From a virus, in the IMG/VR virus record IMGVR_UViG_3300042526_000402, positions 1-64,000 of that record: a stretch of DNA of 64,000 nt. One strand, given 5' to 3'. Positions 29,615-58,588 of this stretch are shown one piece after another. Position 1 is the stretch's first letter; the number at the start of each line of letters is the position of its first letter. The position numbers and the translations under genes are program-made. The notes beneath the pieces were generated by a model, which did not search any database, was not told where the DNA came from, and saw only the letters and a program-made list of their open reading frames with translations.

Positions 29615-29815
29615 ACAAAAAACCCAGATAGTAATCTCTGGCCAAGAGAACTTTTCTGGGTGTTGCTAACAGTTATACTTTACAGCTTTCCTGCGCAGAG
29701 AAGGCCAGAGAGTAAGCGAGCAGATCTTACGGTATGCCCTCCTGGCACTGAGCCTATAGATACTATCTACAGGGGAGGTATGATAAAGAAAAACCCTGGC
29801 GAACCAGGGCTTGAC
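29615..29815 (-). ncRNA. Structured RNA candidate in divergent region
   Basis: About 200 bases with much higher GC than the genome and several strong helices: CCCAGA/TCTGGG closing 29,622-29,659 with an inner TCTCT/AGAGA; CTCTGGCC (29,636-29,643) able to pair with GGCCAGAG (29,703-29,710); GTAAG/CTTAC; TAGAT/ATCTA inside CCTCC/GGAGG. On the minus strand the proximal hairpin is followed by TTTTTTG and a second hairpin (CCCTGG/CCAGGG, 29,794-29,809) by a T-rich run, so a short RNA on the minus strand ending at about 29,615 is the best reading. Confidence 0.4.
29785..29809 (-). terminator. Terminator in divergent region
   Basis: CCCTGG (29,794-29,799) pairs with CCAGGG (29,804-29,809) across a CGAA loop, followed on the minus strand by TTTTTC and more T. 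It implies minus-strand transcription starting upstream (29.8-30.1 kb). Confidence 0.65.
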
Positions 29816-30071
29816 ATTTTAGGCAAATTTGGAAACAGGCCTATAAGCAAAAACACATACAAATGTAACAACTTTTCCTACACCACATAATTTTTTTAAT
29901 AAATTTTTTGAGTTGCTTATTTAACCCCCCATGTTACCAAGTAGTAACTTACCCCCTGGTAACTTGATTTGGGTATTGGGAAATGTTGTATGTAGGAGAT
30001 GGTGGTGACCCCCCTATTCCAAGCCCCCCGGCCTGCGCCACTAGCCTCCCACCCCCCATGCTTTGAGAGAG
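29816..30071. other. GC-rich divergent intergenic region, possible origin
   Basis: No credible gene is seen. The stretch has C-rich runs on the plus strand (ACCCCCCATG occurs at about 29,924 and again at about 30,051), an inverted repeat GTTACCA (29,934-29,940)/TGGTAAC (29,957-29,963) and locally high GC in an AT-rich genome. It lies exactly where the two opposed gene blocks meet, a place where phages often keep a replication origin or the main control region. Origin function is a guess. Confidence 0.4.
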
Positions 30072-30095
30072 CTAACCCTTGAATCAAGAAATATA
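30072..30095 (+). promoter_or_regulatory. Early promoter-like motif CTAACCCTT, copy 1
   Basis: CTAACCCTT at 30,072-30,080 followed by GAATCAAGAAATATAATA. It is the first of six copies at plus-strand unit starts. An inverted repeat TCAAGAA/TTCTTGA follows. Confidence 0.5.
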
Positions 30096-30122
30096 ATAAA
30101 CTTTTTCTTGACAGAAAAAGAA

Positions 30123-30146
30123 CTAACCCTTATCTAGAACTAAATA
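30123..30146 (+). promoter_or_regulatory. Early promoter-like motif CTAACCCTT, copy 2
   Basis: CTAACCCTT at 30,123-30,131, followed by an A-rich stretch with TAAATATAA, 39 bases before the ATG at 30,162. Confidence 0.6.
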
Positions 30147-30161
30147 TAAAATTTAGAAATC

Positions 30162-30389
30162 ATGGATAAAAAAGACAGGTTGTATACTTTCAGATGCAAA
30201 GTGTGCAAATCACAGCAAGATTGGGGATTCTTATTGATTGTTGTAGGCTTTGAAAATAAAGCCTTTACAATCAACAAGAACTATGCTACAAAGTGTGGTA
30301 TGGTTCTTAATAGAATATATGATGTTACTGCAACCTTGAAAGAGGTTGGCAAGTATACAAATATTGAGAAAATATTGAGAGTGCATTAG
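30162..30389 (+). CDS. Unknown early protein (75 aa)
   Basis: A 75-residue protein with FRCKVCKSQQDWGF near the start (one C-x2-C pair), which may be half of a zinc site with the later Cys at KCGMVL. It is the first plus-strand gene, flanked by a CTAACCCTT motif and a strong terminator, and so forms a single-gene early unit. The stop lies inside the terminator stem. Immediate-early host takeover is a reasonable guess; the family is not recognised. Confidence 0.7.
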   Translation: MDKKDRLYTFRCKVCKSQQDWGFLLIVVGFENKAFTINKNYATKCGMVLNRIYDVTATLKEVGKYTNIEKILRVH

Positions 30390-30404
30390 GCACTCTCTTT
30401 TTTT
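30377..30404 (+). terminator. Terminator after first early gene
   Basis: GAGAGTGC (30,377-30,384) pairs with GCACTCTC (30,390-30,397), followed by seven or more T. Confidence 0.9.
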
Positions 30405-30420
30405 CTTCCCTCTCTTTTCT

Positions 30421-30444
30421 CTAACCCTTAACATATATAAAAAT
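30421..30444 (+). promoter_or_regulatory. Early promoter-like motif CTAACCCTT, copy 3
   Basis: CTAACCCTT at 30,421-30,429 followed by AACATATATAAAAATATA. No gene follows for 420 bases, so this copy most likely drives a non-coding RNA. Confidence 0.6.
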
Positions 30445-30447
30445 ATA

Positions 30448-30797
30448 TACTCTCATCTAAGCAAGATATCATTCACTCAAGTGATATAACTAACTTACTG
30501 AACTGATACGTCATCTGTTGGAGAACAGTGCATCTATTAGACAAGAATAGCTATCATATTAGTTAGCAAAATTGTAATTCAATAGAGAAGAATTGAGTTC
30601 TATAAATCATAGGTTGAGTTACAAGGGTTGCAACCTTGTGAGAGTACTATACTGCTATTGAGTTAACTGAACAAATGATGTTCTCATAGCAGTATTATTA
30701 TGTAACAATCAGAGGCATTCTCCTTAAAGGCTTTGGAGATGTAAGTACCGTAAAAGGAGTTAGCCACTCAATAAGAGAGAACTATAAAGGTTCTCTC
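30448..30797 (+). ncRNA. Structured early RNA A
   Basis: This gene-free stretch lies between a promoter-like motif and a strong terminator. TACTCTCA (30,448-30,455) pairs with TGAGAGTA (30,639-30,646), closing a domain. Inside, ACAAGG (30,621-30,626) and CCTTGT (30,634-30,639) make a hairpin with the seven-base loop GTTGCAA directly against the closing stem. The 5' end (TACTCTCATCTAAGCAAGAT) and the 3' end (AAGGGTTGCAACCTTG then AGAGTACTA) both recur in RNA B at 33,372-33,463. Other internal helices include ATATCA/TGATAT and CTGTT/AACAG. The 3' part to 30,797 contains CTCC/GGAG and the terminator stem. Confidence 0.6.
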
Positions 30798-30805
30798 TTT
30801 TTTTT
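30775..30805 (+). terminator. Terminator of RNA A
   Basis: GAGAGAAC (30,775-30,782) pairs with GTTCTCTC (30,790-30,797), followed by eight T. Confidence 0.9.
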
Positions 30806-30808
30806 CAA

Positions 30809-30832
30809 CTAACCCTTAACTCAATTAAAATA
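30809..30832 (+). promoter_or_regulatory. Early promoter-like motif CTAACCCTT, copy 4
   Basis: CTAACCCTT at 30,809-30,817, followed by AACTCAATTAAAATATTA, 43 bases before the ATG at 30,852 and directly after a terminator. Confidence 0.65.
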
Positions 30833-30851
30833 TTAATTAATACTAACTACC

Positions 30852-31319
30852 ATGACAAAAATTATTAAAGCTGCATTAAGCACTAAATATGCTAATGAGC
30901 AAATTGCAAATCTATTAACAATAATAGAAGCAACTCCTAATCCTGAAACTGCTGTAGAAATTGCATTAGGATTATACTCATTACCAAATCTTGCTCCAAA
31001 AGGTATCTTGGAAAAAGGAAATGAAAAGATTGAAGTGGATTTGTTACGCTATGATATATGGCAAAACACAGTATACTTTCAGCATGAAGTACCTAAAGGA
31101 AAGGCTCTCTATGTACTATTAGAAGATGTAGACTATGTGGATTATGATAATTATAGAAACTATGAAGCTGATTACACAGACCGTAGACAGAATCCTGAAA
31201 AGTATGAATATGTGACAGTGTATTCTACTAAAGAAACCACTATAGCTACTGACTATGTGTATCTTGATAAGTGGGAAACTATGGCAGCATTATGGGAATC
31301 AAAACATAGTCTTGACTAA
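30852..31319 (+). CDS. Unknown early protein (155 aa)
   Basis: A 155-residue acidic protein. The first 60 residues are helical (YANEQIANLLTIIEATPNPE), the rest is Tyr/Asp-rich (DYVDYDNYRNYEADYTDRRQ near residue 100). No domain is recognised. It is a single-gene unit with a CTAACCCTT motif before and a terminator after. The acidic Tyr/Asp-rich surface could mimic DNA or bind a host protein, but that is speculation. Confidence 0.7.
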   Translation: MTKIIKAALSTKYANEQIANLLTIIEATPNPETAVEIALGLYSLPNLAPKGILEKGNEKIEVDLLRYDIWQNTVYFQHEVPKGKALYVLLEDVDYVDYDNYRNYEADYTDRRQNPEKYEYVTVYSTKETTIATDYVYLDKWETMAALWESKHSLD

Positions 31320-31326
31320 AAGGAAT

Positions 31327-31352
31327 GAGAGCTAAGGCTCTCTTCTTTTTTT
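31327..31352 (+). terminator. Terminator after 155-aa early gene
   Basis: GAGAGC (31,327-31,332) pairs with GCTCTC (31,337-31,342), followed by TTCTTTTTTT. Confidence 0.85.
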
Positions 31353-31371
31353 CCCCTTTCCCTCTTTCTTA

Positions 31372-31395
31372 CTAACCCTTAACTTAAATAAAAAT
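31372..31395 (+). promoter_or_regulatory. Early promoter-like motif CTAACCCTT, copy 5
   Basis: CTAACCCTT at 31,372-31,380, followed by AACTTAAATAAAAATAAATT, 52 bases before the ATG at 31,424. Confidence 0.65.
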
Positions 31396-31423
31396 AAATT
31401 ATTAATTATTAAATTTAATTATT

Positions 31424-31840
31424 ATGAAAGCTAAATTAATTGGCAAGAGCAAAAGTGCAAAGAGCAAAACTGGATTATCATTTAGATATGTAATCAGTGG
31501 CACTAAAGAAGAAATTGCTGAGTTGGTAAAAACTGAGAATTTCAAAGAGTATCCTCAATATGAAGAAGCTACAGGTTTACCACTTGTATTCAGAAATGAG
31601 CCATTATTGATGAATCCATGTGATGTAGGCATCAGTAAGAATAACAGGTATTATCTTGATGATACAGATGTTATGGTAGAAATGGCTATGACTGAAAAGA
31701 TGAGTAAGACATCTTCTATATTTGCTGAGAAATTTGCAGAGAAAGCAGTTAGTAAGCTCTCTGCCTTATCAGCATTTATGGATAAGGTAGAAATACCTGA
31801 AACTGAAGAATCTGAGCCTGAGACTAAAGAGAAGAAATAG
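31424..31840 (+). CDS. Unknown early protein (138 aa)
   Basis: A 138-residue protein. The N-terminal half is beta-like and basic (MKAKLIGKSKSAKSKTGLSF, RYVISGTKEE), the second half helical with an acidic C-terminal tail (EIPETEESEPETKEKK). An OB-like N-terminal domain with an acidic tail would suit a single-strand-binding or RNA-polymerase-binding protein, but no motif proves this. It is a single-gene early unit. Confidence 0.65.
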   Translation: MKAKLIGKSKSAKSKTGLSFRYVISGTKEEIAELVKTENFKEYPQYEEATGLPLVFRNEPLLMNPCDVGISKNNRYYLDDTDVMVEMAMTEKMSKTSSIFAEKFAEKAVSKLSALSAFMDKVEIPETEESEPETKEKK

Positions 31841-31847
31841 TCTGTAA

Positions 31848-31890
31848 AGAATATAGTATGTGTAATAGCATACTGTATTCTTTTTCTTTT
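31848..31890 (+). terminator. Terminator after 138-aa early gene
   Basis: AGAATATAGTATG (31,848-31,860) pairs with CATACTGTATTCT (31,869-31,881), one mismatch, followed by TTTTCTTTT. Confidence 0.85.
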
Positions 31891-31902
31891 CCCTCCTTTT
31901 TA

Positions 31903-31926
31903 CTAACCCTTTACTAACATAAAATA
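31903..31926 (+). promoter_or_regulatory. Early promoter-like motif CTAACCCTT, copy 6
   Basis: CTAACCCTT at 31,903-31,911 followed by TACTAACATAAAATAGG. It precedes a 470-base stretch without a convincing gene. Confidence 0.6.
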
Positions 31927-31929
31927 GGA

Positions 31930-32370
31930 AGAACAGATATATATACTATAATATGCTGTTTGTACAGTGCTGATTTGTTGTTCAGCATCATGCATAATGC
32001 ATATTAAGTTGTTCTGTAGGAAAGATTATTTATCTGTTCAGCATTATGCACAATGCTACTATGTTGTCTCCACCGTGTGTAGCATTGGCACTTTGCTATT
32101 GGTAATCAAGCAGTTATATTTTTATAATTCTTGTGAAAGTGTGAGTGATTGTGGTAAAAGGTGTCATACTCCTTCACTATATTAACAGTTCAGCATGCTT
32201 GCAAAATGTAGTAAATACCTGACTATTAAGAATAATATAGCTAGAACATGACTAAACAGTACCTTGTAGACAACATATTAAGAGTGTCTATACATATATT
32301 AATCAGTATTACTATTACTATTAGTGTTATCTGCTTTAAGACAGTAATTACTTCCGGAAACTCTCTAAAA
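31930..32370 (+). ncRNA. Gene-free stretch with repeated hairpins, likely RNA
   Basis: No convincing gene. Three related 20-base elements start at 31,981, 32,037 and 32,189, each beginning TTCAGCAT. The first two read TTCAGCAT-x-ATGCA-x-AATGC and can form a small hairpin (AGCATT/AATGCT in the second); the third is diverged. The stretch follows a CTAACCCTT motif, so a transcribed non-coding RNA is the likely reading. A 72-codon frame here (31,967-32,185) is Cys/Tyr-rich and unlike neighbouring proteins. Confidence 0.4.
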
Positions 32371-32393
32371 TCTATAATCTAAATAATATAATC

Positions 32394-32600
32394 ATGAAAA
32401 CTTACAAAATTTATTGGTCAGTAGACCAAAGAACAGGTGATAACCTTATTAAAGCTACTTCAGAAGAATTAGCTATTGCAGAATTTAAATCTGCTTATCC
32501 TAATAAACTTGTTGAACAAATAATAAACTGTTCAACACAAGAATATCAGCTTGCTTATGATAATGAGCAATTTGATTCTAATGGTAGAAGAAAATTCTAA
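32394..32600 (+). CDS. Unknown early protein (68 aa)
   Basis: A 68-residue protein (MKTYKIYWSVDQRTGDNLIK, ATSEELAIAEFKSAYPNKLV) with a beta-alpha layout in which a short helix follows two strands. Nothing recognised. A TAATCT leader element lies 19 bases before the ATG and a terminator directly follows the stop. Confidence 0.65.
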   Translation: MKTYKIYWSVDQRTGDNLIKATSEELAIAEFKSAYPNKLVEQIINCSTQEYQLAYDNEQFDSNGRRKF

Positions 32601-32622
32601 GGGGTAGAAATACCCCTTTTAT
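32601..32622 (+). terminator. Terminator after 68-aa early gene
   Basis: GGGGTA (32,601-32,606) pairs with TACCCC (32,611-32,616), with a GAAA loop and TTTT after. Confidence 0.8.
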
Positions 32623-32650
32623 AAAATAATAATCTCAAAAACTAAAAACC

Positions 32651-33028
32651 ATGACTAATTTATTATGGTGTTCTGCTCATACACCAACAAAAGAGCAAAT
32701 GGAATCACTGAATTCAATGGGACGTGTAATATTCTTGAAAGATATTAACACAACTATACAAGATAAAATAAATAACTGCTCTTCTGATAGAAGTGAGTTA
32801 ATGGATCTTGCCCAAGAATTAAATAAAATAAGACTTGACCTTGACTGTACAATAGTGCAATTAGGTGGCTCACCGATGTTCTTGTATATTGCTGGAGCTA
32901 GTATTAATAGCTGTTTATCAAAACAAGCATTAATATTTGCTCACTCAGAAAGAGTATCAGTAGATATACCACAAGAAGACGGAACTGTAGTGAAAACCAG
33001 TGTGTTTAAACACATTGGTTGGATCTAA
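32651..33028 (+). CDS. Csx20/Csx16-like fold candidate (possible ring nuclease or signal-binding protein)
   Basis: A 125-residue protein. The start MTNLLWCSAHTPTKEQMESL and the later CTIVQLGGSPMFLYIAGASI, then ALIFAHSERVSVD, follow the layout of small Rossmann-like CRISPR ring-nuclease families (a first strand, H-x-x-T-x-x-Q, a central V-x-x-Q-G-x-x-x-x-x-x-x-x-A segment and a last strand before an R). Related proteins occur in Bacteroidota phages and mobile elements. Catalytic residues cannot be assigned. The call is a fold guess supported by its early position. Confidence 0.4.
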   Translation: MTNLLWCSAHTPTKEQMESLNSMGRVIFLKDINTTIQDKINNCSSDRSELMDLAQELNKIRLDLDCTIVQLGGSPMFLYIAGASINSCLSKQALIFAHSERVSVDIPQEDGTVVKTSVFKHIGWI

Positions 33029-33371
33029 TAAAATACTCTGTAATATCAGTTGTAATACCTGAATAATGGTCACATCAAAAGCATGTAGGTATATATCAAT
33101 ATTACATTGATTGAAGTATCATGCTATTACAACTGAGTGCAGAGGGATTATTAAAAGGTTAATAGCAGTCCTTAAATGCTAGATGCAGTGGATAAGCAGT
33201 TTAAACCACTAGGGATACCGTAAATCGGTCAAGGAAAGGTAGACTCCTTATAAGCTACTTTAATAAAATGTACCATTCTCACTTCCCAAGGGTGAGCAGT
33301 TGTAGTGAACATTGTGCAGTGCTTTTAGTAGCTAAGCTAAATCACTTCATTACAACTGAGTGCAAGGGAAT
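33029..33371 (+). ncRNA. Gene-free stretch with two related long hairpins
   Basis: Two paralogous structures are visible. In the first, CAGTTGTAAT (33,047-33,056) pairs with ATTACAACTG (33,126-33,135). In the second, CAGTTGTAGTGAA (33,297-33,309) pairs with TTCATTACAACTG (33,346-33,358). Both are followed by AGTGCA and an AGGG(A)ATTA sequence. Between them are more short helices (AGTGG/CCACT near 33,190-33,215; ACCG/CGGT near 33,225-33,240; AAGGA/TCCTT near 33,232-33,250). No gene is seen. The RNA probably continues into RNA B. Confidence 0.5.
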
Positions 33372-33463
33372 TACTCTTGTCCAAGCAGGATTAATATACT
33401 ACCTATCTGATCATAATATCAGACTATAGGATGTATATCAGGGATTGCAACCCTGCAAGAGTA
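33372..33463 (+). ncRNA. Structured early RNA B, related to RNA A
   Basis: TACTCTTG (33,372-33,379) pairs with CAAGAGTA (33,456-33,463). A hairpin CAGGG/CCCTG (33,439-33,443 with 33,451-33,455) with the seven-base loop ATTGCAA stacks on it, and a rod formed by ATATAC/GTATAT, CCTAT/ATAGG and CTGAT/ATCAG fills 33,394-33,438. The ends match RNA A (TACTCT-x-x-TC-x-AAGCA-x-GAT and GG-x-TTGCAACC-x-TG then AGAGTACTA). The acceptor-plus-T-arm look is tRNA-like, but no D arm or usable anticodon arm is present. Confidence 0.6.
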
Positions 33464-33504
33464 CTAATTAATAATCTAAATAATAATCTCAAAATTTAAA
33501 CCTT

Positions 33505-34260
33505 ATGAAAATTCATTTAAACTCTAGAAATGGTGTGTATACTGTAAAGTCTTACAATAATACATACATATATTTAGTAACTAAGCATTATGAAATGCGT
33601 GTACCATGCAGTGACTTTAAAGCATTTGCTGGTGGTAATCATAACTTTAGCATTAATACAGAAGAAACAGATAAGTTTCTTGCTACTGTTAATCCATCAA
33701 TGTTTCAGCATCAAGCAAAGATGACTGAAAATATTATAGAAGCTGTCAAAGCTTTATCTACTAAACAAATAGAGTTAGATGATAAAGAAGAAATTGATGA
33801 AGCTGATAACATACAATATGAAAATTGGTATTATCAGAAATCGGAAGAGTTAGCTAAGTATAAAGACAAGATCCGCAAGACTGCATCTGATGTGTATAAA
33901 CAAAAATTAGACTTTAGTGATCTTCAAATTCATGATGGTATCAAGTTTATCATACAAGCTAAGCATGATGAAACAGACTTTAGATTCTGTTTTGATCCAT
34001 TTGGATTTGTAGATAACTTTCATAGTTCAATCAGTAATATATACCGTGAAATTGGTTATGGTACTATTAATGGTGGTTGGATTAAAGTAATAAACAAAAA
34101 TGTTATTCTATACTACAAGTCTGGTGACTATGGTGTGTATGATGATATCATTGCTATAGAAGCAGCAAAGAAATTGTTCCCGAATCATAATATCAGCTCA
34201 TATGCTGGTAGACAGTGGGATAATGAATTGAATGTAAAATATGATGATTTACCTTTCTGA
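33505..34260 (+). CDS. Early protein with phosphohistidine-phosphatase-like C-domain and DDLPF tail
   Basis: A 251-residue protein. Residues 1-90 are unassigned, 90-150 helical. Residues 170-235 resemble the PHPT1/Janus fold: FHSSISNIYREIGYGTINGG, then WIKVINKNVILYYKSGDYGV and AAKKLFPN, compare H-x-x-I ... GGGRI ... I-x-VYG-x-S-x-x-(F/Y)G ... YP. The His of the first segment falls near the family's catalytic His. The protein ends KYDDLPF, close to the acidic tip DDDIPF of bacterial SSB. Both readings are pattern-level. The TAATCTC leader element is 21 bases before the start. Confidence 0.5.
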   Translation: MKIHLNSRNGVYTVKSYNNTYIYLVTKHYEMRVPCSDFKAFAGGNHNFSINTEETDKFLATVNPSMFQHQAKMTENIIEAVKALSTKQIELDDKEEIDEADNIQYENWYYQKSEELAKYKDKIRKTASDVYKQKLDFSDLQIHDGIKFIIQAKHDETDFRFCFDPFGFVDNFHSSISNIYREIGYGTINGGWIKVINKNVILYYKSGDYGVYDDIIAIEAAKKLFPNHNISSYAGRQWDNELNVKYDDLPF

Positions 34261-34261
34261 T

Positions 34262-34294
34262 ATGAGTGAGCAATAATAAGCTCACTCATTTTAT
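34262..34294 (+). terminator. Terminator after 251-aa gene
   Basis: ATGAGTGAGC (34,262-34,271) pairs with GCTCACTCAT (34,280-34,289), followed by TTTATT. An ATG inside the stem is therefore not used as a start. Confidence 0.8.
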
Positions 34295-34316
34295 TAATCT
34301 TAAAAACCAAATCAAA

Positions 34317-41638: not shown

Positions 41639-42511
41639 TTGAGTTTAATTAAGGAAGTTACCAGGAAGTCTATGATAATTAGACCTTCTGGTAGATCTAC
41701 TGATTATATATCACCGTCCTTTGGACATGGGTGTTTATATGACTGTAGTTACTGTTACATGAAAAGAAATAAACCTACAGGTTTATCTATTGCTAAAAAT
41801 CATGGAGATATATTAACTGCTATCAATGACCATGCATGGTTTGCTGATGTGGAAAAACCAAATCAAACACATGAAGAGTATATAACTTATGACATAAGTT
41901 GTAATGAAGACTTTGCTCTACATGCTAAATATCATCAGTGGGAAAGAATATTTGATTTCTTTGTTATGCATCCTAAAGCTATGGGTTCTTTTGCTACTAA
42001 GTATGTAAATGAAAAGTTTCTAAGCTTTAATCCACAAGGTAAGATTAGAATAAGATTTAGTCTTATGCCAGAAATTTATAGAAATAAGCTTGAACCAGGA
42101 ACAGATCATATTATTGATAGATTATCTGCTGTAAAAGAGTTTCTTGATGCGGGTTATGAAGTGCACTTAAATTTCAGTCCTGTTATTGTTACTGCAAATT
42201 GGCTTACAGAATATAAAAACTTATTTTATGATATATCTATTATAGCTTTGTCAAATCGTTGGGCTGATGACAGAGTAAAAGCTGAGGTAATATTCTTAAC
42301 TCACAATGTAGATAAGCACTATGCTAATATTGCTAATAATCTTCCGGGAGAAAGTTTGCTTTGGAAACCAGAAATACAAGAGATGAAAATATCTCAGTAT
42401 GGAGGTGCTAACTTGAGGTATAATTATACTCTTAAAGCAGATTATATTGAACAGTTTAAGCAATTACACGAAGAGATAATCCCTTGGAACACAATTAGAT
42501 ACATATTTTAA
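41639..42511 (+). CDS. Spore-photoproduct-lyase-like radical SAM protein
   Basis: A 290-residue radical SAM protein. GCLYDCSYCYMKR (about residues 31-43) holds the C-x3-C-x2-C cluster. The upstream LIKEVTRKSMIIRPSGRSTD matches the N-terminal signature of the SplB-like family, and this needs the TTG at 41,639 as start, because the first ATG (41,672) would remove it. Five bases separate it from the lysin gene. The family repairs UV thymine lesions in spores; phage homologues may act on phage DNA lesions or other substrates. The later motif NFSPVIVTANW fits the SAM barrel. Confidence 0.75.
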   Translation: MSLIKEVTRKSMIIRPSGRSTDYISPSFGHGCLYDCSYCYMKRNKPTGLSIAKNHGDILTAINDHAWFADVEKPNQTHEEYITYDISCNEDFALHAKYHQWERIFDFFVMHPKAMGSFATKYVNEKFLSFNPQGKIRIRFSLMPEIYRNKLEPGTDHIIDRLSAVKEFLDAGYEVHLNFSPVIVTANWLTEYKNLFYDISIIALSNRWADDRVKAEVIFLTHNVDKHYANIANNLPGESLLWKPEIQEMKISQYGGANLRYNYTLKADYIEQFKQLHEEIIPWNTIRYIF

Positions 42512-58446: not shown

Positions 58447-58457
58447 TTAATTAAATT

Positions 58458-58547
58458 GCTTATTTGGTGTAAGGAGGAATGAATACTCTACATGGTTTTA
58501 ACATGCTAACTTGTTAGTGGATAAGGGTTAGAATCCCTTAATAAGCA
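58458..58547 (+). tRNA. tRNA with long variable arm, anticodon loop reads UUU
   Basis: A full cloverleaf can be drawn. Acceptor: GCTTATT (58,458-58,464) with AATAAGC (58,540-58,546), discriminator A. D arm: GTGT/ATAC with a 12-base GG-containing loop. Anticodon arm: CATG/CATG with seven-base loop GTTTTAA, giving UUU at the anticodon. Variable arm: TAAC-TT-GTTA hairpin. T arm: AAGGG/CCCTT with loop TTAGAAT. UUU means lysine, but lysine tRNAs are normally class I with a short variable loop, and the loop position 32 is an unusual G. CCA is not encoded. Confidence 0.55.
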
Positions 58548-58588
58548 ATTTTAACTTAACGGGGAGACAGCTTAACTGAATAAATCCT

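Follow-up and report, generated by a model that had tools for sequence, protein, structure and literature searches.

The question raised by this locus is what kind of element is represented by two gene-poor stretches of virus DNA that match at their ends and differ in the middle. Both lie at the start of the early arm in the window analyzed here, a stretch of 64,000 nucleotides (nt) comprising positions 1 to 64,000 of IMG/VR record IMGVR_UViG_3300042526_000402, which is 135,860 bases in length, and they are designated RNA A (30448-30649) and RNA B (33372-33466). An initial annotation, made from the letters of the DNA alone, proposed that they belong to a new family of structured early RNAs in which a closing stem joins a 5′ module to a 3′ module and abuts a hairpin, like the acceptor and T arm of a transfer RNA (tRNA). 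The shared modules are present in both elements as described, and the compensatory differences named between RNA A and RNA B are real. The lengths given for the middle, about 200 and 92 bases, are those of the whole elements; the variable inserts measure 156 and 49 nt. Two further features were not part of that account: the middle is a hypervariable, exchanged insert, and a second frame family is present in the same gap. RNA A and RNA B belong, with near certainty, to a structured RNA family in which a constant frame carries exchanged inserts.

The constant frame and its covariation

The frame consists of an 8-base-pair (bp) closing stem (P1), a D-arm-like linker, a T-arm-like hairpin with 5 bp and a 7-nt loop, and a C-N-A tail. 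It is about 46 nt long, and the remainder of each element, an insert of 5 to ~200 nt between the linker and the hairpin, is exchanged. The linker of RNA A has U-A where other members (UCC..GG(A)) carry C-G. The hairpin first described for RNA A is present, but its sixth pair and the eighth pair of the closing stem compete with each other, and the family consensus is a 5-bp hairpin.

Homologues are numerous, with 124 distinct complete elements in IMG/VR after removal of duplicates. A pattern of the 3′ module matched 47 IMG/VR stretches and one of the 5′ module at least 119, and two more patterns were used in which parts of the frame were left free. A strict structural scan (8 closing pairs, 5 hairpin pairs and the linker motif) recovered 90 distinct elements in 1.47 Mb of related loci and none in a reversed control, which excludes chance. 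A looser scan (7 of 8 pairs, weak linker) gave 99 matches in the reversed control, and only matches with the linker and loop motif were retained from it. A covariance model trained on RNA B and ten relatives produced 101 matches at an expectation value (E) <= 0.01 in 100 loci (1.04 Mb), with members in nearly all of these loci. All matches that were compared with the list of elements coincided with family elements, among them some with very different inserts. Most genomes carry one or two copies.

Structure was counted on 36 distinct frames, covering P1, a two-pair D-like stem, a loop-loop helix and the T-like hairpin. In these, 98.8% of pairing cells can pair, compared to 94.0% in shuffles, and 12 of the 20 pairs vary on both sides, compared to 3.1; neither value was reached in any of 500 shuffles. 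The initial annotation had named a lack of further homologues and a failure of covariation among the grounds against its proposal; homologues are many, and covariation is strong. Since the shuffle control ignores kinship, the case rests also on the variety of pair types and on a slid-partner control, in which pairing drops to 36–42%. Each of the eight P1 pairs is altered on both sides in some member, as exemplified by TGTTCTTG/CAAGAACA, TTCTCTTA/TAAGAGAA and AAACTTTA/TAGAGTTT.

The linker and the hairpin loop change together, and three states are known: GCAGG with UUGCAA, UUGUAGG with UUACAG (locus L008), and AAUAG with UUAGAA (several loci). The last of these was also recovered when the linker was left free and only P1 and the hairpin stem were fixed, in two matches that represent near-identical loci. 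Such co-change supports a contact between the hairpin loop and the linker loop. Nearly all members have the T-like loop RUUGCAA. Among 120 elements, 112 have C directly after P1 and 90 have A at the third position, so that the 3′ end reads C-N-A. The pairing suggests a tRNA-like three-dimensional shape for the frame. An extended subclass (L054, L058, L065/L165, L068/L087, L094 and L158) has two extra hairpins between the T-like hairpin and the 3′ strand of P1, which in these members runs into a T tract (TGAGAGTTTTT).

This geometry could also be that of a degenerate tRNA- or tmRNA-like RNA that acts through the enzymes which recognize tRNA (RNase P, the CCA enzyme, EF-Tu or a synthetase), for example as a tRNA decoy. 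As in tRNA, an acceptor-like stem of 7–8 bp (the 8-bp P1 being 7 plus one) stands beside a covarying 5-bp T-like stem with a 7-nt loop, a D-like loop (A-G-C-A-G-G) contacts the T-like loop, and most members have the C-N-A tail. In contrast to tRNA, the contact is made through different base pairs, the T loop is RUUGCAA rather than UUCRANY, and the D-like stem has only 2–3 bp. Any base can occupy the N of the tail, with CCA found in a minority of members, and the fixed anticodon arm (5-bp stem, 7-nt loop) is replaced by the inserts. The transfer-messenger RNA (tmRNA) shares with the frame RNAs the placement of another domain at the position of the anticodon arm, but there is no tag open reading frame (ORF) in the latter, and their inserts are wholly different between members. 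ARAGORN and Rfam searches gave no tRNA or tmRNA match at the elements. By these tests the elements are neither tRNAs nor tmRNA, and a degenerate tRNA- or tmRNA-like RNA acting through tRNA enzymes is considered improbable. One Rfam tRNA match in L010 (2521-2626, E 5e-5) was rejected, as it was gone when the stretch was searched alone with default filters.

Bacterial Y RNAs (YrlA) are noncoding RNAs of bacteria and some phages in which a tRNA-mimic module is combined with another arm. The frame family resembles them in this combination and differs in having no Rfam match; YrlA RNAs are not known to carry dozens of unrelated, exchanged inserts. The TROVE/Ro60 gene (PF05731) was absent from the 23 carrier phage records searched, although a Ro60 could be encoded by the host.

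Inserts and their exchange

Comparison by blastn divides the inserts of the 124 elements into 51 clusters, 23 of which have at least two members. This count depends on blastn; for example, the insert of RNA B is a singleton by this measure, yet belongs by structure to a family marked by ACTACC/GGATGT. Some clusters would merge on structure, and roughly 45–50 insert families apparently unrelated by sequence may be a better estimate, with further merging possible. Aligned insert families covary internally and inserts fold better than their shuffled versions (mean z -1.3), indicating that they are RNA.

A constant part joined to a variable part is also the organization of guide RNAs, in which case the insert would pair with nucleic-acid targets (antisense, CRISPR- or TIGR-like). 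TIGR (PMC12045711) and VIPR (PMC13142463) systems likewise combine a constant element with a programmable part, in phages. In contrast to these, the inserts are conserved folded domains with internal covariation and seem not to be guides, and the frame RNAs have neither a tandem repeat array nor GGYNN repeats. The longest antisense match of the inserts to the surrounding sequence, to which the comparison was confined, is 9.86 nt versus 9.84 nt for shuffled sequence (121 inserts). A guide function is regarded as very improbable.

Exchange is apparent when the same site is compared in related loci. At the RNA A site, L011 and L037 share 96% identity across the 700 nt upstream and 83% across the 700 nt downstream, but no alignment is obtained between their inserts, of 48 and 109 nt, respectively; the window carries a third insert, of 156 nt, at this site. 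Loci L042 and L044 carry different inserts despite 98.9% identity across the 700 nt downstream. In the same-site comparison, identity stops at the last base of the linker and restarts at the hairpin. One insert family can be found beside many different flanks, and the same flanks with different inserts. A 51-nt frame with a 5-nt insert, perhaps an empty frame, occurs in four contigs (L003, L007, L029 and L046).

The second frame family, C, has a closing stem (TGCAC/GTGCA), a hairpin with loop UUCCCAAGG, and an arm in which the insert is flanked by CAGTTGTA and TACAACTG. A GGG following the stem pairs with the hairpin loop to form a pseudoknot between loop and 3′ flank. Two copies are located in the window. 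The first is divergent; it has no H hairpin and carries TACAACTGAGTGCAGAGGG at 33128-33146. In the second, a 3′ GGGA pairs with the hairpin loop. The family is also found in L010, L023, L141 and ~60 other loci. Among 23 C frames, 99.4% of cells pair and 12 pairs vary on both sides, and the loop contact shows a compensatory change (CAC with GUG) in L071. The C inserts show the same degree of variability as first-frame inserts. Three distinct C inserts contain ACTACC facing GGATGT, the motif of a first-frame insert family, with the order of strands reversed; the sole other match to this reversed order had no frame around it. The three cases are suggestive of one recognition motif placed in both frames.

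Exact replacement between conserved ends could alternatively be a property of the DNA. The frame ends would then be recombination sites (terminal inverted repeats or attC-like hairpins) of a small mobile element, or “cassette”, and the RNA would be incidental. In integrons, attC cassettes are variable pieces exchanged between folded conserved ends, and exchange of this kind is seen in the frame RNAs as well. The frame ends are inverted repeats, and the almost empty 51-nt frame would suit such an element. The sites, however, are unlike insertions, as the frame occurs in one syntenic region and in a single orientation in 15 of 15 genomes. Usually only one or two copies are present per genome, and unlike an integron cassette, the insert has no ORF. 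In addition, covariation between loop and linker and within inserts requires a folded single strand, and the second, unrelated frame behaves in the same way. No cassette array was seen around the RNAs, although no search was made for an integrase, an adjacent recombinase or target-site duplications. A purely DNA-level cassette is an unlikely explanation.

Genomic place, transcription unit and distribution

The head genes of the window (major capsid, portal and terminase) match PHROGs head-and-packaging families, and the portal finds crAss-like phages. Structural genes occupy the minus strand up to ~29.9 kb, and early and replication genes the plus strand from ~30.1 kb. In all 15 genomes in which both were found, the RNA lies on the strand opposite the portal gene, 11–27 kb from it, and points away. 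Most elements (114 of 124) are not overlapped by an ORF of at least 90 amino acids (aa), and the next ORF of that size is codirectional in 95 of 98 cases.

RNA A is preceded by a terminator-like site and a motif containing CTAACCCTT, and is followed by a conserved hairpin and a second terminator-like site (Table 1). Six of the seven exact copies of CTAACCCTT in the 64 kb are found on the plus strand at 30072-31911, ahead of early genes, and the promoter-like motif is kept in slightly altered form at the corresponding site of L011, L037 and L096. No ORF of at least 40 aa is contained between the two terminators. From this promoter-to-terminator order and the lack of such ORFs, the RNA A stretch resembles a transcription unit with RNA as its sole product. 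The framing of RNA A by a promoter-like motif and a terminator was noted in the initial annotation and is correct to that extent, but the terminator is ~125 nt downstream, behind the conserved hairpin, and the unit accordingly holds several RNA modules.

Table 1. Positions of the RNA elements, their parts (in 5′ to 3′ order) and associated signals within the window
Feature	Position	Strand	Remarks
Intrinsic-terminator-like hairpin and T run	30377..30406	+	Separates RNA A from upstream gene; consensus scan
Promoter-like motif CTAACCCTT-N-AAAATATA	30421..30447	+	Directly before RNA A; putative early promoter
RNA A, whole element, 202 nt	30448..30649	+	Fold z = -2.6
RNA A P1, 5′ strand TACTCTCA	30448..30455	+	Covariation
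RNA A D-arm-like linker TCTAAGCAAG	30456..30465	+	Mini-stem UCU/AGA, loop AAGCA between
RNA A variable insert, 156 nt	30466..30621	+	Insert family common to L060, L073, L119, L138
RNA A T-arm-like hairpin CAAGG-GTTGCAA-CCTTG	30622..30638	+	
RNA A P1, 3′ strand TGAGAGTA, and C-N-A tail (CTA)	30639..30649	+	
Hairpin module TACTGCTAT..ATAGCAGTA	30650..30694	+	Adjoins RNA A 3′ end; fold z = -3.5; same site in L011, L037, L096
Terminator-like hairpin, 11-bp stem and T run	30773..30805	+	Closes the putative RNA-only unit
C-frame element 1, divergent	33036..33146	+	Closing stem CTCTGTA..TGCAGAG; arm CAGTTGTA, insert, TACAACTG; fold z = -3.9
C-frame element 2	33269..33369	+	P1 TGTAC/GTGCA; hairpin CTCAC-TTCCCAAGG-GTGAG; arm CAGTTGTA, insert, TACAACTG
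RNA B, whole element, 95 nt	33372..33466	+	Fold z = -4.2; model R1 E = 7.5e-20 (RNA B is one training sequence)
RNA B P1, 5′ strand TACTCTTG	33372..33379	+	
RNA B D-arm-like linker TCCAAGCAGG	33380..33389	+	
RNA B variable insert, 49 nt	33390..33438	+	ACTACC/GGATGT insert family
RNA B T-arm-like hairpin CAGGG-ATTGCAA-CCCTG	33439..33455	+	
RNA B P1, 3′ strand CAAGAGTA, and CTA	33456..33466	+	

The main rival explanation arises from this placement. It holds that the elements are cis-acting leaders, or processing or stability elements, of polycistronic early messenger RNA, with the insert serving as a sensor or protein site that tunes the downstream gene. Their intergenic position and codirectional neighbors fit this description, some lie only 28–56 nt before the next ORF, and the T run that ends P1 in one subclass (TGAGAGTTTTT) is terminator-like. 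Nevertheless, RNA A sits in an apparent unit of its own, elements lie at a median of 469 nt from the next codirectional ORF of at least 90 aa, and one insert family precedes many different flanks. A cis-acting role is judged unlikely, but deserving of serious consideration, since almost all elements are in sense orientation within the DNA of the early arm.

The RNA system seems to be confined to one clade of crAss-like phages. Portal proteins of carriers are 62–95% identical to that of the window, compared to 32–35% for Leptolyngbya phage Lbo-JY46, the closest cultured relative found; no cultured members of the clade were present in the collections searched. The frame is absent from the GTDB collection and from six crAss-like genomes, i.e., Lbo-JY46 and five others, of which the three tested also lack frame C. 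A pattern scan of genome contigs gave five matches, none of which passed the structural scan with linker and loop motif, and these were taken as chance. Searches by blastn with the region, and with RNA B alone, against 50,697 phage records gave no match. Rfam 15 yielded no match at or above the gathering threshold in the window and nothing relevant at E <= 10 in 29800-34300; a FuFi-1 match at 30264-30405, far below its threshold, was dismissed. No description of such a family was found in the literature, of which coverage was incomplete, and one may exist elsewhere. Given the many homologues, strong covariation, lack of an Rfam match and conserved early-arm position, the original proposal of a new structured-RNA family with an acceptor/T-arm-like frame is borne out. 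The novelty of the family is its organization (constant frame, exchanged domains, two frames), not a demonstrated function.

Other features were observed in the same regions. A gene-free stretch of ~450 nt in the window (31928-32390) has repeated CAGCAT/TGCATAATGC-like pieces and may hold more RNA modules. Further gene-free modules occur in dense arrays at L023:1400-4100, L141:5000-7300 and L108:2500-4293, several of them shared between loci, and have no Rfam match. A Hatchet ribozyme at L019:10327-10463 (82 bits, E 1.7e-15) shares its gene-poor array with a frame RNA, which follows ~600 nt later. Elsewhere in the window, a tRNA predicted as Pyl with anticodon CTA (58457-58548), also present in L028, is more likely an amber-suppressor tRNA, and a gene similar to spore photoproduct lyase (PF20903, E 3.6e-21) is located at 41639-42511, in a crAss-like phage. 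A second portal gene, with 92% identity to that of the window, lies beyond the window near the far end of the 136-kb record (G000:130517-133243). Two strains may have been joined in this record, or its ends may overlap.

Possible function of frame and insert

The explanation preferred here is that RNA A and RNA B are early noncoding RNAs in which a tRNA-elbow-like frame carries an exchangeable target-binding domain. Confidence in this combined statement is evenly balanced. Of its parts, action in trans is somewhat probable, while a role of the insert in anti-host specificity is put forward tentatively. The family, its fold, the loop-loop contact, the exchange and the genomic position are established computationally; transcription, action in trans and a host-factor target are inferred. 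The family would probably be transcribed early as noncoding phage RNAs. Their frame folds like the acceptor/elbow half of a tRNA, with the 8-bp stem beside the 5-bp hairpin, whose 7-nt loop kisses the linker loop, and the insert, folding independently, takes the place of the anticodon arm. Related phages exchange inserts, presumably through recombination within or close to the conserved ends of the frame, leaving the frame and site unchanged. The frame may act as a stability and recognition handle, perhaps for a protein that recognizes tRNA elbows. Target specificity would reside in the insert, which most plausibly binds a variable host factor, for example a defense protein, or serves as its decoy, and changing hosts would select for insert swaps. 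Replacement of whole inserts between near-identical phages would be expected if the insert determined specificity in a conflict with hosts or rival phages.

Several points weigh against this explanation. Codirectionality with the next ORF would also be expected of a cis-acting leader. Persistence of the 51-nt member in four contigs suggests that an insert is not always needed. Lastly, frame segments of 18–25 nt are short and could act as seeds of chimeras during metagenome assembly. Several combinations of flank and insert recur across independent samples, however, which speaks against chimeras without excluding them everywhere.

Structured phage RNAs are usually conserved over their whole length. 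In this family, near-identical phages retain the fold of a small frame but can differ completely in the part that looks functional, and the same holds for the second, unrelated frame. For comparison, GOLLD and ROOL (PMC12286853) are also structured noncoding RNAs of unknown function, some of them phage-linked, but they are far larger and conserved throughout, whereas the frame family has ~46 constant nt and no Rfam match. It is conceivable, if a little short of an even prospect, that these phages follow a general strategy without earlier description, in which at least two unrelated, stable RNA frames with pseudoknotted constant cores display, at the start of the early region, domains that populations swap like specificity cassettes, as an RNA counterpart of anti-defense gene swapping. 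If the inserts do bind host factors, the 51 insert clusters would constitute a catalogue of natural RNA binders, and the frame a natural display scaffold. The RNAs would also provide a direct handle on the role of the gene-poor start of the early arm in this crAss-like clade.

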